From positions 62,001 through 126,000 of the forward strand of contig JAMKCH010019712.1 in the NCBI GenBank assembly GCA_023653785.1: a stretch of DNA of 64,000 nucleotides, written 5' to 3'. The position numbers and the translations under genes were made by a program. Within the stretch, counting starts at the first letter, position 1; every line of letters starts with the position of its first letter. The notes beneath the pieces were generated by a model that was not told the origin of the DNA, did not search any database, and was given only the letters and a program-made list of their open reading frames with translations. Positions 6,932 to 62,041 of this stretch are shown here, one piece after another. The stretch is from Ophioderma brevispina (lineage: Eukaryota; Echinodermata; Ophiuroidea; Amphilepidida; Ophiodermatidae).

Positions 6932-7086
6932 CCATTCCGAACCCGCCTAATATCGTTAGTGTGAAAGGGGGAAATCAAAACGTTATGGTCAATTGGACCA
7001 TTCCTAAGGAATGGAAGAAAGAACGTATGTATAGTCTAGAGTACAAAATCCGCTACAAAGCATCTGCTTCTGAAACATGGCAAGAG
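6932..7086 (+). CDS. Gene 1 exon: first half of second CHD (FN3) domain
   Basis: Acceptor ttatatttcag precedes 6932; donor gtatgt follows 7086. The entry phase (1) matches the exit of exon 3985-4151. The translation IPNPPNIVSV, then MVNWTIP, then YSLEYKIRYKA and ETWQE is a textbook FN3 A-B-C strand series (Pro-rich start, core Trp, YxxxY strand C). It closely follows the corresponding gp130 segment that begins with the PNPP linker. Exits in phase 0. The second half of this domain, where vertebrate receptors have WSXWS, is not confidently identified downstream; see 16431-16512. Confidence 0.9.
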
Positions 7087-8870
7087 GTATGTCTTTACTA
7101 AACTATAAATGGTATAAATTTAGGTTATGTAAATTACAAATGTATAATTTATATTTTAAAAGCCAGAATATTTCAACTGTCGAAAATGGGGGCGTGCTAT
7201 TTAGGCTGGGACCCACGGCCTCAAAATTTGGAGGACCTGGCTCGGAAATATATACGATTTTTGAGTTCAGATTCATTTAATACCATGTTTGGGATATATG
7301 AAAAGTGCTGTTGTAAAATCTGAATTTCTTGTCCAGTTGCGTACTGGCCTGTTTTAGATAAAGGGTCAGTGCACATGAATAGTGTGTCAATTTCTAAGGG
7401 TTGGGGTAACAAATTCAGGATTATTGCTTATGTATCTTGTGAAAGGCAGACAAAAGTTGCTAATATAACAGTACAACACTTATTTTATAACTTTTTGTTA
7501 TTTTATTCACTTTAACATTTCTTAAACAAGAGTCAAAGGTCAAAGACGTTCTTTTCCGTACTGAATTTTAATACATTACTAATATCGTACACAAACATGT
7601 TTGACATGTCACTTTCCTACCATCTGAAGGTGGATGATGAATTTCGTTATTGTTATTAGTTTTATAGAATCCTATTGTTGAGTTAGGTCCCATGTTGTAT
7701 ATTTTTATAAGGGAGCGGTCATTATTTAAGACAGGGGAGGAATGGAGGATTTCAACTTGTTTTCGTCGAAACAATTTGCGTCCCCCCTTCGCTTCCGTTC
7801 AAAAATGTTGGCATTCCCCCTGATTTTATGAGATTTTTCCATTAAAAAGTTCACGTTCCCCTTCCACTTGATTAAAATGTTTATAAGACTTCCTTATTCG
7901 CACCTCTTGCTTACAATTTTCTTGCGTATTCCCCTAGCTCAAATCCTCCATTTCCCCCTGGCCTAAATAATGCCCCCTCCTAAAGTTCCCGCCCACTTGC
8001 TAGAGAGTCTTTTTGAGTTTTCAAATTTAAGGTGATGCATTGCGGGTTACACGATTTTCGGCATTTACAGAACACCCGGAAAATATTTTGTCTGATTTAG
8101 GCTCAATATGTGCAGAAGTTTCCTGTCTATGCAACAAATGCAGTCAGTAGGTGGGCGAGTAGCGTCCCCCGAAATAAAAATGCAAAAAGTTACCCCCAAA
8201 AGCTAATTCTTGAATTCAGAACCCGGGAAGAAACGACATTAAGGCTTCATATCTGACCAAATGTTTGGATAAGGAAACGTCATTATCCCTGGGAGGAGAC
8301 GGCCCCTGAATTGACTTCACTCATTCTAGCAAAGCCTAAGACCATAAACCGCCTCCCGACAGAGTTTCCAAACCATCGAAATGTTCTGTGTCTGCCAACT
8401 CAATTGGTGACAAACTCCTCGCAAATGGTCGTTTCAAGGATATTTGATAAGGATCGCACCTCTCCTGTTTAAAACGAGATCACCAATCTTCGTCGAGCCC
8501 CTAGGCCCTGGCGTGGACGGGTCGCTTTCACCACCCTTCTCACGAGATTTACCTACCTCTAGGCTATCAGCCCAACTAAATATTGGAAATGCCCAGTTGC
8601 CTTATAATAACAGCGTTGTCCTGAATTCACTGTGTGCCCACACTTTCTTGTAATTTCTCTAGGCTTTTCTGACACAAGTATTTGCCGTGCAGAAGGAATA
8701 GTGGTGAGGGGGGGGGATGGGCGATAGGTGTTTTGTAGAAGTGGGGGGTATGAAAGTGGGTAAGTGCGTAAGGAGTGGTTGAAAGATGAGGAATATTTAT
8801 TAGTAAAGGGGGCGAAGGGGAAAGGGAAGAAAGAGGGGTTGCTCACCAACCATTCCTTACCCACGATCTG
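7087..8870. other. Intron sequence; fold-back at 7712-7980
   Basis: No coding signal. 7712-7752 and 7940-7980 are reverse-complement arms of about 40 bp (ggagcggtcattatttaag against ctaaataatgccccctcc, and ggaggattt against aaatcctcc), forming a short fold-back element. A purine-rich stretch at 8700-8840 is low complexity. Confidence 0.7.
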
Positions 8871-10460
8871 GATGAGTGGCTACCATAGATCGCACTCCCA
8901 AACAACAAGCCCGGTTGACCAACCCCAAAACTAACCGCCCAATATCACTACTGTGTGATTCCTTCAAACTCCTTGATCCTGGCCCGTCTTGTAGCGCAGT
9001 TATCAAATCCCATCTGCCGAACAAGCAGATTTCGCCGTGGCCAGAGCACCGTCCAACAGATTGTAAAACTCACAAATGATAGTGAGGAGAGCTTTGAAAG
9101 CGTCGGAAGGCAGGCGTCATCTTGGTGGAAATTACTGCAGCATATGACACCGTGTGCAACCAGTGCTTGACACTCAAGCTTCGCAGGACCATTCCGGATC
9201 GTCCATTGTACAATCATAAGTATGTACATAATTTCATACCTAGCATGTTCTTAAGACCAGTGATGTGCAGAGCAGTCGACGCATCGTCGGGGAACTGAGT
9301 TCCCGCACAAGGATCAGTGGTTGGATCCATGCAGGATTAACTTGTGTATCAGCGACTTACTTCAAACAACCGCTACGCCGATGATCTTAATCGCCCTTCT
9401 TCACTTGGACATAAGCTGGCCTTGAGTAGAAGTCTACTTCTTGCAGATATGGCCTACTGCAGCATATCTCAGACCTGGAGACTCAAGCAGAGTGACCGCT
9501 AAGACCACTGCTACTGCCTTTCATTTGAACACCAAAGCGGCTCATCGCCAGCTCCAAATCAACCTCAATAGAGCGCCTCTGCAATACATCCTACACCAAC
9601 TTATCTGGGAGTGAAGTTGATCGTCAGCTTACTTATCGACAGCATCTCGAGTCAGTAAGTACAAAGGTATCTTTCGAAACAACCTCCTGTGCCGCCTTGA
9701 TGATCTTCATGGGGTGCTAGTCCTCCACCTATGCACCACCGCCCTGGCCCTAGTGTACAGCGCTGCTGAATATGCCGCCCCAACATGGTGCAATGCTCTC
9801 ATACAAAAAAGCCTGGACACGTTTTGCAACGAGACCATGAGAACCATTACCTGCTGCCTTCGCCCACTCCATCTGAGTTTCTAACAGTGCTTTCCGCATG
9901 GCACCTGCAGTTGCCCTTCGGAAGAATCACAACATAAACTGTGAACATGCTCTGTTTGGACAACAAGCACCTACTGCATATACTGTCACAGAATCACACC
10001 AGCTCGACAGACTGTGCTCTCATCGGCCCTTCTGTCGACATGCCGCTTAACTTTCCAGCTCCCCATTCAACATCTTAAGACAGCGAACACTACCTGACTA
10101 ATACCCCAAGACAGACCAATTCACTCTCCCCTTTGAACAGATTCCCTCGCTGGTACAAACTTCCACGCAAGGAATGTGTCCCTTGAACAGGATTCGCACA
10201 GGAAGCCAGTCGTTTCAAGAGCAATATGCACCAGTCCTGCCAATTTGGTTCTCCACATCAAGACGCAGATCACATTCTCAAATGAGTGCCCTAGATACCT
10301 TTCGTCCACCGTGGATTTAGACCGTTCAAACCCCACCAAGCACCAGTGATCTGGCTCCACCAAATCAACACATAGCTGCTGCCTCATACGCAAGCAAAGA
10401 TGTATTCCATTTACGAGTAACAGTTTGATTAAAACTCGCCAATTCGCTAATTGCAAAGGC
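8871..10460 (+). pseudogene. Decayed LINE copy (reverse transcriptase to C-terminus), plus strand
   Basis: Fragments in several frames match a Jockey/CR1-group reverse transcriptase in the correct order: NPKTNRPISLLCDSFKLL near 8920-8980 (RT motif 'YRPISLL'), then 'FRRGQSTVQQIVKLTND' near 9020-9080, 'LALVYSAAEYAAPTWCNAL' near 9740-9800, and the C-terminal 'CQFGSPHQDADHIL' near 10240. Many stops and frameshifts: inactive. The 3' end (cctcatacgcaag, 10385) matches the nested insert at 1907-2347. Lies in an intron of gene 1. Confidence 0.8.
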
Positions 10461-16845: not shown

Positions 16846-18200
16846 TGTAAGAACAATAAATTATACATACATTACATATAAACACATTAAAAACATTACA
16901 ATCTGATCAAGAGAAATATAATAATTCGAACTTTACGTTTAAAAACTTTGTCAGTGTAGGTCAAGGACCTTAAATTAACAGGAAGTTGATTCCAAACAGA
17001 AACCCCATGATGGTGGGAAAAGTTTCTTGCCCAGCGTGTTACTGGCATTATATTGTGTAAGACAACCACCTATACTGGATCGAGTAGCATAGGGAGTGGA
17101 TGCTCATTTAGAGGAGAAAAAAATCAGATAAATAGCACGGAGCATCACCTTTTAAACACTTATAGATCATATATGCAGTATCAAAATTAGATCTTTCAAG
17201 GGTCTTCCATCCCAAATTACGAAACTTATCAAGCAAAGGGGCTCTTGGACCTTCATTAAATACCACACGAGCAAGCTTGTTAAATAGAACCTGGAGCTTA
17301 GTTTTATAACACTGGGAACAGTTATACCACACCAATTACAATAATCAGAAAATACGGTATAGCCAAACTTGTAGCTAGACCCAATTGGTTATGTTGAAAG
17401 GAAAGATGTTCGCCTAACCTAGAAAATTAGCCCAAGCGATAGAGACGCTTTTAGACGTATTAGTAATATGGGTATTCCATTTCAATTGTGGATCGAAACC
17501 AAAACCACAAAAGATATTTATATGAATTTACCCTTCCATGAAGTATCACAAATTGATAAACGAGCATATTGAACTTATCAATACAATGATTTGTGCCACA
17601 TAGTATGTACTTAGTCTTAGGAAATATTCAAAGATAACGAATTTTTATATAACCACTCTTCAACTTTAGAAAGGTTCTCATTAAGCAAACCCCTTACACA
17701 ATCTATTCATTATCGCAGAAGCATACATGAGAGCCGTATCGCAGCATAAAGAGTAGTTTTGCATGATAGAATAGACGGCAAATCATTAACAAAATACAAA
17801 AGAGCACGGGCCAAGAAATTCGCGCCCTGCGGGACACCAATGGTGATGAATTTCTTATCAGATGACACACCATTCAACACAGTTGTTTGTTTACGCCCAT
17901 TTAAATAAGAAATAAACCATTTAAACTCATTGTTACGCACACCAATGTCATGAAGTTTCTTTAGTAATAAATTGTGATTAACAGAATCAAAAGCTTTACG
18001 AAGATCAAGAAAAATAATACCAGTGGCTTTTTTACTACCCATGGCTTTCAAAATATAATCTGTTACATCGAGAATAGTGGTTTGTGTTGAATGGCGGGGT
18101 CTGAAACCAGATTGCTATCTAACCAGAACTAACTCTCTAACTCTATGACGTTGCAAAAAAGTATACAATGCATCATGAACAAATCTCTCCAAAATGTTTG
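16846..18200 (-). pseudogene. CR1/L2-like LINE fragment, minus strand
   Basis: On the minus strand 17710-18051 encodes a reverse transcriptase core: ATGIIFLDLRKAFDSVNH (catalytic-site A motif), then 'IGVPQGANF' with a truncated next motif. 17108-17335 encodes the distal part: WYNCSQCYKTKLQVLFNKLA, then 'LGWKTLERSNFDTAYMIYKCL'. Stops break the frame between these. It differs from the Jockey/CR1-type copies elsewhere in the window, so it is a second LINE family. It occupies the intron where a gene 1 half-exon is missing. Confidence 0.82.
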
Positions 18201-20316: not shown

Positions 20317-20461
20317 AACCAAACGCGCCTACCTTTGTGAGAGGTTTTCCCTCTAGTAACAGTAACTCAACTATACAGGTTAAATGGAAACCCGCAGCAG
20401 AGCGTAATGGATATCTACGAAACTACACTATTGAATGGAGAATTACTGATGCAGAAAACTG
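20317..20461 (+). CDS. Gene 1 exon: FN3 domain, first half
   Basis: Acceptor ttgtattgcag precedes 20317; donor gtagga follows 20461. Entry phase 1 matches the previous exon. Translation PNAPTFVRGFPSSNSNS, then TIQVKWKPAAE, then GYLRNYTIEWRIT and AENW: Pro-rich start, core Trp in strand B, strand C 'Y.IEWRI'. Exits in phase 2 and its last two bases complete the next exon's first codon as Trp (TGG). Confidence 0.93.
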
Positions 20462-20929
20462 GTAGGACGTCAATAAATATGCTTGGTGTAATTGAAACGG
20501 CTGAATTTTTAAATTAATTAATTTAAAAATATTATCAATGTTATATTTAACTATGATGATAAAAATACGAAGGGATTCAACAAAGTCAGTTTCTTGTTCA
20601 TGTAAAGTAATATCGGAATCAACATTGATGACCTTGAAAGCGAGGTTAAAAGGGGTTCACGTTTTATCTCATCCAATTTAGGATTTGGTATCATTGAAAC
20701 CGCTTAATAATAATTTTGAAGGGAAAAAATTAAAAAACAGCTTTTATTTGGTCAACGGTTTTTAGCTTTTTTGTGCATTTTGGCCGAACAAAAATGCCCG
20801 TTTTGTTGTTCGTTCGTTTGCTCTGTTTGAAATGTATGCACATTTCGAGATTTTGTACGACGGACTGCCTCTAAGACGATTTTGCTCTATACAGCCCGTT
20901 GTACAAATCATTATAACCTAATGAATGTG

Positions 20930-21286
20930 TAACGTTTCACCCTAATGTCGTTAATAGCGTCATTATTATTATTTATTATTATCATCATTATATTGCTAAT
21001 AGTGGAATAGGGATTTGCTTTTGTTATTCACTCATTTTGGCGTTAGGGCGAAATATACCTTCCCCTTAACGCCTCCCTTTGTATTGCGGTTTATTCCGTT
21101 TCGGATAACAAAGGATATGAATATTAATTTATGCAAATGAAGGATAATCCACTAGAATGACAAAGGATATGAATATTAATTAATTTAAATAATTATATAT
21201 AAGAACTCATTATAACCTAATAATTATTAAACCTTCCCCCTAACTACCATGTTAGAGTTATTATTATTATTATTATTTGTGAACAG
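20930..21286. repeat. Interspersed repeat R2, copy 2, with TTA microsatellites
   Basis: Reverse complement of much of 3470-3720 (aaaggatatgaatattaatt, tttatgcaaatgaaggataa, ggtttattccg). Two TTATTA tracts flank it, the second directly before the acceptor of the next exon. Non-coding. Confidence 0.65.
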
Positions 21287-21438
21287 GTCAAAATTTGATA
21301 CATTGTCGGAGAATGTCACGGATTACGAAATTACAGGATTATTGGCGTACACCCTTTACAATATTAGAATTCGTGCAAATAACGACAAATACAATGGTAT
21401 CTGGACGGACATTAGATCAACTCGAACCAAGGACGGTG
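21287..21438 (+). CDS. Gene 1 exon: FN3 domain, second half
   Basis: Acceptor tttgtgaacag precedes 21287; donor gtaagg follows 21438. Phase 2 to 1. Translation (W)SKFDTLSENVTDYEITGL, then LAYTLYNIRIRANNDKYNG and IWTDIRSTRTKDG. 'V..YEITGL..YT.Y..RIRA.N' is a complete E-F-G FN3 half and completes the domain begun at 20317. 'NVT' is a potential N-glycosylation site. Confidence 0.93.
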
Positions 21439-21739
21439 GTAAGGTCAACATTCTAAAAGTCCTTTGCTGAAACCGTTGCTTTGGAATATTAGCAAAGCGC
21501 TTGTTCTTACGTCTCAGTTGTTTTAACGTATCTATTTTTTTATTATGTTTTTAAATACAACAAGAGATTGAGCTGATGCAGTTGCATACAATTTTTATAA
21601 AGATAACTAAGTTGTGGTTAACTCATCATTTTTCACAATCTAGATACTCCTAAAGATATAACTTTTCAATGCTGCGGCTTTGGATGTTTCAAACTCCATA
21701 GTTCAAATAACTTATAGGGATGTCCATTATCTTATTCAG

Positions 21740-29890: not shown

Positions 29891-30048
29891 CAGGTTGCAT
29901 CGGCGGTTGCATCATCACTGATAGTGTCTTTTTATGGTTTTCAAGTATGGATATATCTGTCTACAGACTATATTGTTTCTCAGAGAAGCGAAAAGCACTT
30001 ATGAATGATAATTTTTGTTATTTTGGTTTGTTTTGGTTTCTGTGTCAG

Positions 30049-30337
30049 TTGCACAACCGCACCTCTTAATTTACAATAACAAATACAACATCCACTACCA
30101 TCAGCTCTCCTGGGATACGACCCCAGAACTCGAGGGAATCCTTCAGCACTACACGGTAGAATAATTTTCCCTTGCCAGTGACCAAAACCAAAATCCAGAG
30201 AGTATCGAAGTGAACGTTTGAATGCTGTGTGTCTGGACTGCTAGGGTATGAAACTTACATCTTTCGCGTCAGTGCTCAAAATGCCCTACATCTGGGACGG
30301 TTTTCTGAGGACGCGTGGGATACATACCAACATTGAG
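30049..30337 (+). pseudogene. Decayed FN3 exon of gene 1
   Basis: Acceptor ggtttctgtgtcag precedes 30049 and donor gtacgt follows 30337. The first part, read in phase 1, gives AQPHLLIYNNKYNIHYHQLS, then WDTTPELEGILQHYTVE, then a TAA where the aromatic residue after strand C should be. After SIEVNV the frame is lost; in the +1 frame it resumes as CCVSGLLGYETYIFRVSAQN, then TGA just before the donor. So one whole FN3 domain in a single exon, like 30916-31230, has two stops and one frameshift but keeps both splice sites and a symmetric 1-1 phase. It can be skipped without disturbing the frame. Alternatives: sequencing error (three separate lesions make this unlikely) or a tiny unannotated intron. 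Confidence 0.82.
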
Positions 30338-30915
30338 GTACGTCACTGTTAAGTCATGACAAGGGAACAGGTTCGTCATGGTGTAGTTGAGTTTTTTACG
30401 ACATGATTACAGAATATTATCAACCAACACGACATATGCACTTGCGCGCCTACTCTAATAAATGAATATGAATGTTAAACTCCTCTATCCAGTGATGAAT
30501 AATGTCATTTTATCTCAAATATGAAAACCCATTCAGCATCATCACTTCTGAGTAGATAGAATGAGAAATGAGTTAGGAAATCATAAAATCCTGGAGTCGT
30601 AAGAAATACCTAATAGGTTATACAACCAAATAGATATACCAAATACTTAATACCCATACAGGCATGTACAGTAACAGGATAGGCCTAGTGCCTCTAGGCT
30701 CGAGAGTGTTAGCTTGAGTTTCATCTGGATATAATTTTATTTTAAAGTGGCTGGTTTGCAAATTAAGATTGGTGTTATTGTTACGTATTATCCATGGTTT
30801 GTGTTATTTAAACAAAATTATGAATTATAACGTTTGCGATGAATTCAACAGTAATTTTCTCTTGTTACAATGGTATCATCAATTTATGATTGTGATTTCT
30901 TTATCACCAATACAG
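30338..30915. other. Intron sequence, nothing recognised
   Basis: AT-rich; no exon. Confidence 0.5.
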
Positions 30916-31230
30916 CACCTGGATCACCGGTCCAATTCTCTGCTTCACCAGTGTCATCCAAAGGGATGTCTCTCTCGTGGGATTTCCCGCTACATCTCAA
31001 CGGACCAAAGCCATATTTCATAGTAGAATACAGAAGATCTTCAAACGAGGAATGGCAGAAGAAGAAAGTCACCACAACAAATACTACCGTCAGTGTGGAG
31101 TGTGATTTGATAGAAAAGGGCGTCATGTTTGATTTTAGAGTTTCGGCTGTAAACGTGGATGAGAAGGGACAAATGTTACAAGGAGAATCAACAGAACCTT
31201 TGCAATATCAAATGTGCCGTCCAGTGCCAG
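30916..31230 (+). CDS. Gene 1 exon: complete membrane-proximal FN3 domain
   Basis: Acceptor ttatcaccaatacag precedes 30916; donor gtatat follows 31230. Phase 1-1; 104 codons. Translation PGSPVQFSASPVSSKGMSLS, then WDFPLHLNGPKPYFIVEYRR, SNEEWQKKKV, VSVECDLIEKGVMFDFRVSA, and PLQYQMCRPVP. This is a full FN3 domain (Pro-rich start, core Trp, Y.IVEYR strand C, FDFRVSAVN strand F) with no internal intron, unlike the upstream domains. It joins the transmembrane exon in phase, completing a Val codon. Confidence 0.94.
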
Positions 31231-31364: not shown

Positions 31365-31513
31365 TGTACGTGGTCGTTCCAGCGGTAGTTATTTCGCTGA
31401 GTGTCGTTGGGGCTGTTATCTTTATCGCCTGCTTCGTTAAACATATCAAGAAAACCAGCGTCTTCCAAGAGGTGCCTGAGCCACATTTTATTCAAGACAC
31501 TAGAATGGACATA
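31365..31513 (+). CDS. Gene 1 exon: transmembrane helix and Box 1
   Basis: Acceptor attgcaattacag precedes 31365; donor gtaagg follows 31513. Phase 1 to 0. Translation VYVVVPAVVISLSVVGAVIF, IACFVKHIKK, then TSVFQEVPEPHFIQDTRMDI. A 23-residue hydrophobic helix is followed by a basic stop-transfer (KHIKK) and a Box 1 motif 'F..VPEP', equivalent to WxxVPxP in gp130 and the leptin receptor. In this family Box 1 docks the JAK FERM/SH2 unit. Exits in phase 0 into the tail exon. Confidence 0.95.
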
Positions 31514-33356: not shown

Positions 33357-36123
33357 GAATGGAACGGAACCTTTCATACTCCTGAAACAGAAGTTTTTGA
33401 CGAGCTTTGTGAAAATGTCCCTGAGCTCTTTTCTTCAAGGCCTGATAACGAATTGCCAACAGCTGCCGATTTTTTTCTTTGTGATTCAACACCAACTCAA
33501 ATTCAGCAATATCAACCACAAACGGTCACCAAGACACCAAGTCACATCAATCCTATTGCTCCAGTTGCCGCATTTAACCGTTCCGAGAGTACAGATAGCG
33601 GATTTCCAGATACACCATCTTCAGCTAAGGAATTTTTTCCAATGTTAACATTAGCTGAGGATGATGATGTATTTGAGAGCCACCTACTTTCATCTGAGAA
33701 CAATAAGATGAAAGACAATCCTATGGCGATTGATATACATTCTCTTTTTAATCCCAATCATATGGGTTCATCTGTGTCTGTATCGTCTCATATGAAATTA
33801 GCGCAAAATCCAGGTGACAAACTGCCGATATTACAGCGCAAAACACAGGTCGAAACCACAGCAAAAACGTCCCCAACATTAGGTCATACTCCACGTTCTT
33901 CGCTTTCAGTAGGTGATGATCCTTATTTCAAAATGTCTCGCCTTCCCACTCAGCAAGAGAAACATCCAAACACGATGCGACCACATCATGGCAGTATCAC
34001 AATAGACCCAGTCTCCGAGCAGCCACTGATGCCTAATTCAATATTAAACACTCAATCTATTCTTACTACTTCTGATAATTACGCAAAAATGTCACAAATT
34101 CCACATTTAGCAACTATGCCTAATACCAATCAGACCGATCGGAAACAAGTCGAAATTATCCCTCAGGTACAGAGTCTACCGTTTGAGGGCGCATCAACGA
34201 AAAGAGTTGAATTTGACCCTTACTCAAAGATGTCCCAACTGCCGACTTTTCATTTATCTGAGCACGAACAACAGCAACAAATCAAAGAAAATACTCCCAA
34301 CATCTTAGAACTTTCAAAGTCAGCCGATAAAACTGAAATTAACAGAAATACTCCCCCTCCAGTTTCACATGCATTAAGCCATATTCCCAGCTTACAATGT
34401 GAGCGTGTAGGGAATCCATCATCCTTTAACAAAACTGTAAGAAAAAGCAATTCCGACCCTTACTCAAAGATGTCCGCTCTACCGCATTTCATGACAGCTA
34501 AACCCAAAGTAAAACAAAATTATCAAAGTATGTATCAAGATTCCAGGCCACCTTGCGGTACCGGGACTTTCCCACAAAATTCACCAAACCCAAATACATC
34601 AGAACAGATTCCAGACACTCACCTTGGTCAAGCGAGACACATAGCCTTAAAACATGCTTCAGGAGGAGTAAATAATCCCCCAGTTGGCAATCTATCTCAT
34701 CAAAGCATACGAAAACCAGATTCTGATCCTTACTCCAAATGTCTCAACTTTCAAATCTCGTCACAGTTGAACAGCAAGTCAAACACATAGACCGTAGTAT
34801 TTCACATGGATTAAGGTCACCTATAGGAACTGCGAGTGATGCACAAAGGTCACAGACTCCAAAAGCATCACAGAATGTTCCAATGATGCACCTTAACGAA
34901 GAAAGAAATGTAAGCTCAGAAAATGTTCCTCGGGCAGGGAGTCGACCTCTCCAAAACACAATAATGAAAAAACCTACTCCAAACCCTTACTCAAAAGTTT
35001 CACAACTTCCCAATTTTCTGACAGCTCCACAAGTCAAACATGATGGTCAAAGTATTTCCCAAAACTCAAGATCATCCATCGAAACTGGGACGTATGTAGA
35101 AAGTTCACAAATGCGAAATGTATCAGAGGATGTTGCGATCACTCGTAGTTCAGACAATATTTCCCTGGCTGGGAATCCACCTTCCCAAAATTTAAGAAAA
35201 CCCGATTCGGACCTTACTCAAAAATGTCACAACTTCCAAATTTTCTGACCGCTGCACAACAGAGGAATCCATCGCCCCAAAACACAAGAATAAGACAATC
35301 AAATTCAGATCCTTACGCAAAAATGTCACAACTTCCAAATTTTCTGAGAGCTAAAAAGGATGAGACGGAACACGAAAAGGACACTTCCCAATCTTCCAAG
35401 ACACCCTTAGAAACCAAGACTCAAGCGAAAATAATTTCAGACCCATCAGGTTCTCCCAGCTTGGCCGTCAACCAATGGCAAGACAGAGTAACTTGTCCTG
35501 GTGTGCAAAAGCCATCACTTCCACTGCCACTTCCTAGTTCCAATCCTTACTCGAAGATATCGGAACTTCCAAATTTTCAAAAACGTAACCAACCAGTGAA
35601 GTCCAAATGTGCAGCTGACCATTTCAATTCAGTATCGGAAACTTCAATTCCAGATCCGTCAAAGGCTACTTCCGACAGGCATAACGACATTCAAAGCACC
35701 GCAAACGATAGAACTCTTTCTGATTTCGGAGGAATTCAAATTCAACAATATACACCTTCGTGTTCTGTGCCGCGAGAGGACTCTTCCTTAAATTACACAC
35801 AGTCACACCCAGGTTCTATGAAATGTCAGGCTCTTTCATCTATCTCTAATAAAGCAGTTGCTCCCTACGTAAAGTTTTCCGAGCTTCCACTTTTGTCCAC
35901 AAATAATTCAAAAGGGCAAGAGAATAATGAGAATAGTATATGTTTTGAAAAAGCGATGGGTTCCTCGGAATTATCGGAAAATGGCACACAAAGTAAACAA
36001 GGCAACAAAGTCCCATCAGGATCTTCTTACACGGTCACCAATCAACTAACAATGGGATCAAATCATAGTGACTTCTCAAATCCCTACCTAAAGTTGGCTC
36101 AGCTCTCCACACATCAACATTGA
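33357..36123 (+). CDS. Gene 1 terminal exon: giant phosphotyrosine-repeat cytoplasmic tail
   Basis: A T-rich tract and ttttag precede 33357; entry phase 0 matches 31513; stop TGA at 36121-36123. Three long open stretches in different frames (33357-34738, about 34739-35211, about 35212-36123) together encode about 920 residues, against about 277 for the human gp130 tail. Low complexity, Ser/Pro/Gln/Asn-rich, no folded domain. Features: YQPQ at 33510-33521 (STAT3-type YxxQ), a DSG-F-P-D-T-P-S element at 33594-33620, then eleven tyrosine modules (see 33915-36093). The frames are linked by two single-base losses, one in an A-run (34737-34739), one in a C-run (35212-35213), each inside a module. 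Open frames and modules persist after each, so sequencing indels or very recent mutations are likelier than an old pseudogene. If real, translation would stop at 34788-34790 after four complete modules. Confidence 0.92.
33915..36093 (+). repeat. Eleven-copy tyrosine module PY-x-K-hydrophobic-[SA]-x-L-P
   Basis: Within the tail, Tyr codons at 33924 (PYFKMSRLP), 34080 (NYAKMSQIP), 34221 (PYSKMSQLP), 34461 (PYSKMSALP), 34731 (PYSK then frameshift, then MSQLS), 34988 (PYSKVSQLP), 35215 (PYSKMSQLP, reached after a frameshift), 35314 (PYAKMSQLP), 35548 (PYSKISELP), 35866 (PYVKFSELP) and 36085 (PYLKLAQLS). Most are preceded by SD or SN. Spacing is irregular (99 to 333 bases) and the linkers differ, so this is not a simple tandem repeat. 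Six copies fit YxxM, the PI3K p85 SH2 consensus; YSx[MVI] also resembles the gp130 SHP2/SOCS3 site. The partner is unknown. Confidence 0.93.
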
Positions 36124-53520: not shown

Positions 53521-53720
53521 CTAGATGATTAAACATGGTCTAATGTGAGTACAATGTATAATATGTATATTATGTTTTCCCAGTCCTAGTCTTATCGTTT
53601 GGGGAATATAAAGTAAAGGAATTTTATATTTGTGAAAGATGCGCCTGTGTCATTTTAATATGCATAAATAACAATGCTAATTGCTTAGTATGATTTTAAT
53701 TTATTATTTGCTACCAACAG

Positions 53721-53988
53721 TTATCGATCCAGTTGGCCCATTCGTGAAACCAGGCTCTGATTTAAATATAACATGTACGTGCAATAGCCCTGGCGTAGTT
53801 AAGAACTTGTGTGGATGGAAAACTACGCGGAGCTTCCAAAGAATAGATACATCATTAAATGAAACGAAATCCCAGCTAGCTATACTGTATAACCTCCATT
53901 GATGATCACGAACACGACACTTATAGCTGGCTGTTTTGAAAGTAATCAGCTCGACTGTTATGCGTACGTTACTTTGGTATCAGTGCAA
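53721..53988 (+). CDS. Gene 2 exon 2: Ig-like domain (two apparent indels)
   Basis: Acceptor tgctaccaacag precedes 53721; donor gtaaga follows 53988. Entry phase 1. The first part reads IDPVGPFVKPGSDLNITC, TCNSPGVVKNLCGWKTTRS, then NETKSQLAILYNL. A stop follows in frame, but in the next frame the text continues as SIDDHEHDTYS, and after a second shift as FESNQLDCYAYVTLVSVQ. That order (B-strand Cys, C-strand Trp, 'IDDHDTYS' before strand F) is a C2-type Ig domain like the N-terminal domain of gp130. The shifts are one base near 53892-53897 and one in a T-run at 53934-53937. Where the F-strand Cys is expected the text reads Trp. Either sequencing indels or a dying exon. Confidence 0.78.
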
Positions 53989-56933: not shown

Positions 56934-57764
56934 GTAGAACGTTCATATTGAAGTCCCAAGTATATAAAGGGAGTTGCCATTGATTCCAAGTCTGCGCTAA
57001 TGCACAACATTCCTACAGTGCCATGACGGAATCAAGGCAATACCTCATTTGCGTACTTAAGACTTCTATGTGAAACGTCTAACCAAAACTGGGCAGGATA
57101 ACCAGTTATAAACGCCTGACATCTAGTCAACTGCGTGGACAGTATAACAAAGGCTATGCTGTCAACTAAACAAAGGGGAATCTGAAGTCTTTGTCCGCCC
57201 GAAGAGCAGGTGGATTTACTTGGCTAATTGCATATTGTTGAGTCAATGGAGCATAGTGTATGTCCCTGATCATGTATTCAGAAAGAAAAATTGAGATTGC
57301 ATTTTATTCATTTTCATGAAAATGTGCAACCTTTACAACTTGCCATAACCAATAAATGGTAAATATAAAATTTTATACTTATAGTGGAAAAATGTTACTC
57401 TAGAAGGATGTAATCAAAATGAACAATTTTTCCTTGTATCCATGGCAATATGATTTACCCGGCGCGCCCTATCATAAATTAATTCATTTACTAGAAAGAT
57501 TCCTTCCATAGCTACTACCAGCAGCTGGTTTATTCTATACGAACGTTTGCTGAGAAAATAAAAAAAAAATAATGTCAAGGTGGGCACTTAATCTGGGCGG
57601 CTCTCTCAAAACCTGTCCAACTTTAAAATTTCTTCTTCTATTACCCCATACTAGACTAAGTGATTGATTACACTTTTCTACATTCCTGTTCGTCTAATTT
57701 CTCTGCTGCTTTATTATTTATCATCTTCATATAAATAAAACATTATATTCATTCATATAGGTCA
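56934..57764. other. Intron or flank, nothing recognised
   Basis: No exon or repeat I can support. Confidence 0.45.
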
Positions 57765-58165
57765 TTTCAAATTACATTCGCTTACTCCATTTCAATTTGC
57801 ATTAACGTATTTCATTTCAAATTACATTCACATATTTCATTTCAAATTACATTCACATATTTCATTTTTAAATTATATTCACGTATTTCATTTCAAATTA
57901 CATTCACATATTTCATTTCAAATTACAATCACACATTTCATTTCAAATTACATTCACATATTTCATTTCAAATTACATTCACGTATTTCATTTTTAAATT
58001 ACATTCACATATTTCATTTCAAGTTACATTCACGTATTTCATTTCAAATTACATTCACACATTTCATTTCAAATTACATTCACGTATTTCATTTCAAATT
58101 ACATTCACGTATTTCATTTCAAATTGCATTCACGTATTTCATTTCAAATTACGTTCGAGTATTCC
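57765..58165. repeat. 25-bp tandem repeat, about 15 copies
   Basis: Unit acattcacgtatttcatttc plus aaatt (25 bp), with 26-bp variants that have one extra T. Copies differ mainly at cacgt/cacat/cacac. Confidence 0.95.
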
Positions 58166-59239
58166 ACATTAGATTCACATTATATTCTAATCATAACAAA
58201 CAAGCGAAGGCGAAACAAAAGAAAACACAATTCAAAGAGTAAAAACAAATCAACCATTCAAAAAGAAGAATTCTTATTTTACTAATGATGGGTCATTTAT
58301 ATTCATAGGTTTACAATATTACCTCTTTTCTGTTATAATAATAATAATAGCTTTATTTCAACGCGGTTAAAACATGTTCAATGTACAATATTGTTCCTCC
58401 ACATGCCAGTGGCTTTAAAATACTGCAGAATAAAATATACATTTTAATTTTACATTTTAAATGATTATACAATTAAACAGAAATATATGTGTTTAAAGCA
58501 AATGATTAAAAGTTGAGAGTAAGGAAACAGATAAACGATTACCCAATTAAAAATATCCAAAATATTGCTTATCTCTCAAATAGAACAAATAAATAACCAT
58601 AAAACTATACAATTAACAAAAGTACTTGTAAAGTTGCACCACGCTAGATTAAAATGACTCAAGACAAACGAGAAGCACCCAAGTAAAAAACAAAAATATG
58701 TACAATTTTAAATTCAGGCAAATGTGTTATATATACTTGGTCTTATGGGTAATAAAAAAATCCTTTTAAAAAGGACTTAAGGGGAGTCAAGGGGAACTAT
58801 CCATGTAAAAGGTATGCGAGAAGGATTAGTAAAATGACATTTTGTGGGAGTTTTGCAAGTTGACTTATTTGATTTTGGAACACTTAGCCGAGGTATACAT
58901 GAACGTTAATAATTTACACACAGAGTGAATAGAGGGGTTCATATCCCTCTATTAAATTTTCGATTTTTAAAGGAAATGAAAGGAAAAATGGACAAGATCT
59001 CCAAAATACAACATAATTTACCACTTTATTGGGAGGAAAACAATCAAAGCTAACTTATCCCCCACAAGGTTTGACCACTGCAGAATCACCAGCCGAAATA
59101 AAAGAAAGCAATTCCAGCTATTTGCATGCCGACGGACTTAAAGTATGTTATAGGATTAGGCACACGTACCAACGTGATAACTAACATTTTGTTTTAAAAA
59201 CTAGGTTTAAACCCTTTAAAAAATGTAAAGCTCCACATT
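58166..59239. other. AT-rich sequence, no gene
   Basis: 58340-58400 (aataataataatagctttatttcaacgcg) resembles the 3' end of a retroposon. Nothing else recognised. Confidence 0.4.
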
Positions 59240-61860: not shown

Positions 61861-62041
61861 GTGGATCACGCCAGATGGTCTGAGCAATGTCATCTTCTAC
61901 CTTGAACCTAAAGCAGTGTTTGTTGAAAGCCTATCTAAGAAGCCCAAAGGTTGTGACCTTGAAGGAAAGCCACCGATCAACCTCAATGCGACTCAGAGAA
62001 CTGGGACACATAACACGTCATTGATGAACTTTGAGGTCTGA

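Follow-up and report, generated by a model that had tools for sequence, protein, structure and literature searches.

What might a putative cytokine receptor do with an intracellular tail that repeats one tyrosine-centered peptide many times? The question is raised by a receptor gene of the ophiuroid Ophioderma brevispina, the 3′ part of which lies on the plus strand of contig JAMKCH010019712.1 (assembly GCA_023653785.1), positions 62,001 to 126,000. This stretch of 64,000 nucleotides (nt) is called the window here, and coordinates refer to it unless another contig or locus is named. The genome searched is the 2.51-Gb assembly of 65,844 contigs. The tail encoded in the window contains eleven copies of the peptide, referred to below as the module; modules of the same kind occur in the tails of two paralogues, and the peptide is conserved between copies within each gene. 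We put at about even the chance that the modules form a multivalent phosphotyrosine (pY)/SH2 docking array acting downstream of JAK.

The pattern Y.K[MVILF][SA].[LI] was found 10 times on the plus strand, from 33924 to 36105, in the three frame pieces that make up the tail. A frame break interrupts an eleventh copy, at 34725, which reads DPYSK before going out of frame. In 2,000 rounds of shuffling residues within the pieces, matches averaged 0.004 and never exceeded 1, versus the 10 observed, and the eleven spaced tyrosine modules of the original prediction are thus real. Counting from the tyrosine, Lys at +2, a hydrophobic residue at +3, Ser or Ala at +4, and Leu or Ile at +6 are the search pattern itself and are present in 10 of 10 copies by construction. 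Pro at −1 and Pro at +7 lie outside it, and each occurs in 9 of the 10 copies; the conserved Pro-Tyr pair claimed earlier therefore holds except in the module with its tyrosine at 34080, which has Asn. Modules contain 11 of the 18 tail tyrosines. The tail exon, at about 921 codons, is some 3.3 times as long as the 277-residue tail of human gp130, which has YxxQ sites (PMC7444064, Table 1), in agreement with the threefold excess first described. The features of the tail are as follows.

33357..36123, plus strand, last exon, encoding the intracellular tail with the module array
33510..33521, plus strand, YQPQ, a YxxQ (STAT3-type) site outside the array
33732..33749, plus strand, DIHSLF, a tail motif conserved across the three aligned paralogues
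33918..33947, plus strand, module 1, DPYFKMSRLP (Tyr codon 33924)
34074..34103, plus strand, module 2, DNYAKMSQIP (Tyr codon 34080)
34215..34244, plus strand, module 3, DPYSKMSQLP (Tyr codon 34221)
34455..34484, plus strand, module 4, DPYSKMSALP (Tyr codon 34461)
34725..34754, plus strand, module 5, interrupted by frame break 1
34982..35011, plus strand, module 6, NPYSKVSQLP (Tyr codon 34988)
35209..35238, plus strand, module 7, GPYSKMSQLP, with the second frame break at or just before it (Tyr codon 35215)
35308..35337, plus strand, module 8, DPYAKMSQLP (Tyr codon 35314)
35542..35571, plus strand, module 9, NPYSKISELP (Tyr codon 35548)
35860..35889, plus strand, module 10, APYVKFSELP (Tyr codon 35866)
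36079..36108, plus strand, module 11, NPYLKLAQLS, four codons ahead of the tail end (Tyr codon 36085)

Coding of the array on the reverse strand was considered and rejected: the one frame translated is full of stops, and no minus-strand frame reaches 150 amino acids (aa). Two other tail sites were noticed. DSGFPDTP (33594-33617), ahead of the array, resembles a DSG phospho-degron and is not kept in the two aligned paralogues. Where the aligned paralogues read PYMKVG and PYLKVG, the window gene reads SHMKLA (33786-33803), a further Tyr-x-Lys site with His in place of Tyr.

What kind of receptor carries this tail? The ectodomain exons, placed by eye and with approximate ends, lie between about 3990 and 31230. 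The main features are listed below.

6932..7087, plus strand, FN3-like ectodomain exon, placed by eye with approximate ends; its open frame contains IPNPPNIVSVKGGNQNVMVNWTIPKEWKKERMYSLEYKIRYK
20317..21453, plus strand, FN3 domain in two exons (about 20317-20463 and about 21285-21453), from Pfam fn3 and splice-like ends
30010..30333, plus strand, FN3-like exon with at least three frame changes and one in-frame stop, read by eye
30916..31230, plus strand, intact membrane-proximal FN3 exon (Pfam fn3, 34.1 bits; cut-off, 25)
31365..31513, plus strand, transmembrane exon with box1 (VPEP at 31472-31483)

Pfam fn3 exceeded its cut-off in two of nine scanned window pieces, both of them ectodomain exons of this gene; the second match, on 21231-21467, scored 25.7 bits (cut-off, 25). 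The pieces of the broken exon at 30010..30333 match a counterpart in the paralogue on contig C24284, where it is intact and open. VPEP or VPDP follows the transmembrane segment directly in all four transmembrane exons of the family that were read, and the last exon joins the transmembrane exon in phase 0. A probable first exon, immunoglobulin (Ig)-like, lies upstream of the window at L017:8318-8680, where the best Pfam match, Lep_receptor_Ig, is weak (17.4 bits, under the 28.8 cut-off). The WSXWS motif was not found in the window gene, where the matching exon could not be located; it is present as CWSVWS in the C24284 paralogue at L043:8047. A Pfam scan of the first and third tail frame pieces, the longest two, matched no family, catalytic or other, at E up to 1. 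Because FN3 domains, a single transmembrane segment, and box1 occur together, placement of the window gene with the gp130/Domeless-type class I cytokine receptors is supported as far as tested.

A second receptor gene of the same family appears to begin farther along the plus strand. Its Ig-like first exon (53681-53899) is 58% identical over 43 aa to the first exon upstream of the window, and its tail would lie beyond the contig, which ends at window-equivalent position 66052.

Is the array confined to one gene? In the paralogue on C13895 the tail stays open over 1,522 aa and includes six such modules; in that on C24284 it stays open over 1,224 aa, also with six (DSYSKMSQIP, SSYAKMSQIP, DPYSQISQLP, DTYSKVSQCP, DPYVKASQIP, and DPYMKINELP; one of the six with Gln at +2) and ending in DPYTKLDRQIP. 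The C13895 tail also carries eleven YS[QR]- or YTR-type modules and, after another frame change, eleven tandem units of about 41 to 46 aa around IDDYSQMSVS (C13895, 17060-18478; L009, 4050-8690). Degenerate DNA patterns of the module led to both genes. The first and looser one, which led to C13895 and served to find loci only, had 50 genome matches, versus 62 for its reversed control; the second, which led to C24284, had 22 versus 6. A stringent pattern had 28 matches (reversed-pattern control, 15), of which 17 fall in five receptor contigs (C19705, 6; C13895, 4; C24284, 3; C49330, 3; C13918, 1) and the remaining 11 lie singly on 11 other contigs. Other pattern matches that were looked at were single copies in short frames or in none.

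The three genes can be aligned from the transmembrane segment through box1 to the start of the tail, where 38 of 278 columns are invariant. Farther on, a genome search with the whole C24284 tail matched itself, a copy on C49330, and a partial copy in its own intron, with no match to the window tail, and the window and C13895 tails align at about 30% over some 300 residues. Because of this difference, the likeness lies mostly in the module for the window and C24284 genes and in the module plus weak overall descent for the window and C13895 genes. The last FN3 exon has nine genome matches, itself included, four of which belong to the family members C26830, C17083, and C61147 (two matches). No tail exon was recognized between the transmembrane exon of C26830 and its contig end, and a 2,001-base fragment of C61147 showed no recognizable transmembrane segment or tail.

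The partial copy in C24284 lies in the intron before the transmembrane exon (30230-30849; L037, 2431-3050). Its part at 30358-30849 is open and 88% identical to the tail, that at 30230-30400 is 77% identical with one stop, and it holds one module (DPYMKINELP); it may be an internal duplication, an alternative exon, or a misjoin. On C45541, a contig not tied to the receptor family, two identical matches to the looser pattern (PYLKVAKMP-like) lie 590 bases apart (9488-10103).

Has the module been kept by selection, or has it merely been copied? The full modules of the three genes give a set of 22, which leaves out split module 5, also omitted from the shuffles and the substitution analysis; position +3 was searched as [MVILF] in the window and [MVILFA] in the paralogues. 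At positions outside the pattern, 20 of the 22 have Gln or Glu at +5, 20 have Pro at +7, 18 have Asp, Glu, or Asn at −2, and 17 have Ser or Ala at +1. The proportions of synonymous (pS) and nonsynonymous (pN) differences between copies were calculated from Tyr to +6 by the Nei-Gojobori method. They were 0.68 and 0.21 in the window (n = 10), 0.85 and 0.25 in C13895 (n = 8, including two YSQ-type copies outside the 22-module set), and 0.81 and 0.31 in C24284 (n = 6). The pN/pS ratio is 0.29 to 0.38 in the module versus 0.79 to 1.05 in the flanks; pN is lowered by the use of the motif to choose the copies, and, most of the flanking sequence being nonhomologous, a ratio near 1 there is what unrelated sequence gives.

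The high pS indicates that most modules are not recent copies. Tandem Repeats Finder saw no array at the module tail, whereas a repeat search of the tail found copies of 48 and 89 nt that include linker and are up to 90% and 78% identical, respectively. Neighboring modules thus share linker, and local duplication contributed to some of them. The original prediction of unconserved linkers and of selection rather than recent tandem copying accordingly stands for much of the tail, where linkers diverge and no clean tandem repeat is seen, and fails for those neighbors. Could the whole array then be low-complexity repeat growth, the motif having spread by slippage and local duplication with no function and no selection? 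The shared linkers and the tandem series that ends the C13895 tail would suit such growth. We nevertheless regard it as very improbable, since copies with pS of 0.68 to 0.85 and pN of 0.21 to 0.31 are old yet alike in peptide, and three genes have the peptide in common, two of them without any further match between their tails. The recurrence of the module in three genes amid much linker divergence fits selection on a docking motif.

Is the window copy itself a working gene? No single frame is open through its tail, which needs three that overlap (33357-34790, 34727-35248, and 35149-36123), a point omitted from the original prediction, and both breaks fall in or at modules. Comparison with the sister modules suggests that at each break a short homopolymer run is one base too short. 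Dozens of stops and many small gaps mark two more tail copies, on C13918 (22605-26663) and C49330 (6939-10822), which may be either pseudogenes or duplicate contigs that were left unpolished. Nucleotide identity between C13918 and C13895 is 81% over the aligned tail and 86% in the modules, and of the 18 module rows aligned, 10 contain gaps of 1 to 3 bases; the slightly higher module identity is no strong sign either way. The longest match of C49330 to C24284 has 90% identity, with 101 gap positions in 2,613. Such a mixture of gaps and stops could come from dead copies as well as from stretches where the consensus sequence is poor.

The window copy could accordingly be a recently broken gene, its array a relic of functional paralogues. 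Such an origin would account for the two tail breaks, for the three or more frame changes and the stop read by eye in one FN3-like exon, for the failure to find the WSXWS exon in the window gene, and for the two stop-ridden copies elsewhere. It agrees less well with a motif kept in 10 of 11 modules, with intact last FN3 and transmembrane exons, and with tail breaks that look like single-base homopolymer shortenings, and the small gaps separating broken from open copies fit poor consensus in parts of the assembly as well. We consider it somewhat unlikely. With its frame breaks, the window copy, which may or may not be functional as assembled, is by itself a weaker case than was first held; the family is a stronger one.

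If the modules are a docking array, how would they act? The receptor would be one member of a small gp130/Domeless-type class I family, with JAK bound at box1. Ligand-driven dimerization would lead JAK to phosphorylate the module tyrosines, most of which follow an acidic residue or Asn at −2, in a tail that is long and of low complexity. One SH2 protein, having a hydrophobic +3 pocket, would then find an identical docking site in every pY-[SA]-K-[MVI]-S-Q-[LI]-P; the likeliest such protein is a STAT or a regulator of the SOCS type. Repetition of one site 6 to 11 times, along with the second, YS[QR]-type series in paralogues, would raise valence, and through it the tail could control the gain or duration of signaling or seed a signaling cluster. 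We infer the phosphorylation, the SH2 reading, the identity of the reader, and the effect of valence; the first two are proposed from the presence of box1, from the acidic or Asn character of −2, from the hydrophobic +3 position (required by the search patterns, which admit Ala in the paralogues), and from the way the tyrosines cluster in modules. The docking array as originally predicted thus keeps its gp130-like class I receptor and its module repeated in three genes amid diverging linkers, while phosphorylation, SH2 reading, and Lys at +2 as an SH2 determinant stay conjectural. More tentatively, and at somewhat less than even chance, the module may be a lineage-private SH2 code, stacked with the YS[QR]-type module to about 10 to more than 20 tyrosines per tail; receptor valence, with one SH2 protein clustering in a condensate-like way, would then govern how strong the cytokine response is, and paralogues would be tuned by copy number.

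Which protein would read the motif? The Csk SH2 core, pY[TSA][KRQ][MIV], fits 16 of the 22 modules, and Csk is kept as an idea only. Several STAT activation tyrosines have Lys at +2, and because of this the lysine may be a feature read by the kinase and not by an SH2 domain. Searching the genome for the Pfam family STAT_bind gave no match anywhere, controls included, and is uninformative. Published motifs were taken from the lists in PMC7444064 and PMC9783222; Table 2 in the latter files CSK under pY-x-N. The 125 human class I receptor tyrosine sites in PMC7444064 Table 1 (long isoforms, with at least three tail-end sites left out) were ranked against the module profile. Y487 of GHR (DFYAQVSDIT) came first, a rank that is not significant for the best of 125 (per-site null, 0.28%), and its score of 3.3 is below that of every module (6.2 to 32.5, leave-one-out). 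The shortened sites PTYMRVS, PSYVACS, and RSYVAL rank too high, since missing positions go unscored. SOCS2 acts on GHR through Y487, according to PMC3183054.

Two other readers have to be weighed. Modules read unphosphorylated by AP-2 mu2, as YxxPhi sorting signals, would make the array a control of endocytosis and surface level instead of signaling. Twenty of the 22 fit Y..[LMVIF], given as a class I receptor internalization motif in PMC7444064 Table 2, although the search patterns already asked for a hydrophobic residue (or Ala) at +3. Two modules have Ala there, the conservation of Gln/Glu at +5 and of Pro at +7 would go unexplained, as would, we think, the need for so many copies, and we judge sorting improbable. 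The other possibility is an IRS-like array whose YxxM modules recruit PI3K p85 directly to the receptor. IRS proteins are known for multiple YxxM sites in one scaffold, and Met stands at +3 in 12 of the 22 modules; the other 10, however, have Val, Ile, Leu, Phe, or Ala, and p85 is not known to read +6 or +7. To this reading, too, we give a low probability.

Against a docking array downstream of JAK, several points have to be counted. The modules fail the STAT motifs listed in PMC7444064: of the 22, none has YxxQ (STAT3; the tail has its one YQPQ at 33510) or YxxP, and the STAT5/STAT6 motifs YxxF, YxxL, and Y[VLTFIC] fit 1, 1, and 4. The p85/SHP/SOCS class pY-psi-x-psi fits only 8, and the best human site, Y487, does not stand out from chance. 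The looser pattern has no genome-wide enrichment, part of the resemblance between the window and C13895 tails is common descent, and the pN/pS contrast is affected by how copies were chosen and by flanks that are mostly unrelated. The window copy has two tail breaks and a broken FN3 exon, and the stop-ridden C13918 keeps its modules about as well as the rest. Phosphorylation, binding, and expression are assumed in this reading. Finally, no module-bearing relative was found outside this genome, in searches limited in length range, word region, and word sharing.

Those searches, made against a protein database, were three. The first tail piece of the window had no match among 2,285 candidates (limited to about 262 to 835 aa). 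A 24-module query at E up to 10 had none among 5,396, run without a positive control. The receptor model from C24284 had 22 matches among 7,487 candidates chosen by words from its first 500 residues, before most modules; by listed names and domains these are titins, receptor phosphatases, sidekick, and other or unnamed FN3 proteins, with no cytokine receptor recognized. The search of other invertebrate receptors that had been suggested thus ran only through a word-limited database and returned no match, which is weak evidence that the array is lineage restricted. IL6R-like receptors, JAK, and STAT are reported in molluscs in the available text of PMC13203501, which does not describe tail repeats there.

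Two unrelated features of the window may be recorded. An open tandem repeat at 57739-58242, the translation of which repeats FHFKLHSHISFQITFTYF, is probably a satellite, and a reverse-transcriptase-like fragment on the minus strand at 17713-18114 (QSGFRPRHSTQTTILDVTDYILKAM...LDLRKAFDSVNHNLLLKKL) appears by eye to be of the long interspersed nuclear element (LINE) type.

How does this tail compare with known systems? Were it to work as proposed, it would be a natural test of how docking-site valence affects JAK signaling, its strict consensus would make the reader findable by a simple peptide pull-down, and it would be relevant to the coupling of invertebrate cytokine receptors with STAT and SOCS proteins. 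Scaffolds of the IRS/Gab type likewise carry many copies of a phosphotyrosine docking motif in a disordered chain, but they are cytoplasmic adaptors with PH/PTB domains, whereas here the array is in a receptor and the conserved peptide is longer. Scaffolds of the immunoreceptor tyrosine-based activation motif (ITAM)/LAT type share the valence-dependent SH2 recruitment proposed here and use another motif, with Y.N absent from all 22 modules. Y487 of GHR resembles the modules in Asp at −2, Ala at +1, a hydrophobic residue at +3, Ser at +4, and Ile at +6, a resemblance that is not significant, but it is a single site with Gln in place of Lys at +2 and without Pro at +7. Among 29 human class I receptors, the longest tail is that of IL-4R alpha, at 575 residues, compared with about 921, 1,224, and 1,522 residues here, and the tyrosine sequences within one human receptor are mostly unlike one another (PMC7444064), whereas one module dominates the tail of the window gene. 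Three things appear to be new relative to known receptors, in a literature search that did not cover the module string itself: one module repeated along a tail, tails of this length, and the occurrence of the module in three paralogues. The closest likeness is to the gp130/IL-6 receptor family and arthropod Domeless, with which the gene shares FN3 domains, a single transmembrane segment, a VPDP-type box1, a long tail with spaced tyrosines in which no catalytic domain was seen, and perhaps an Ig-like first exon (a weak match); human gp130 differs in having a 277-residue tail with YxxQ (PMC7444064), as against about 921 codons built around one repeated, non-YxxQ module.

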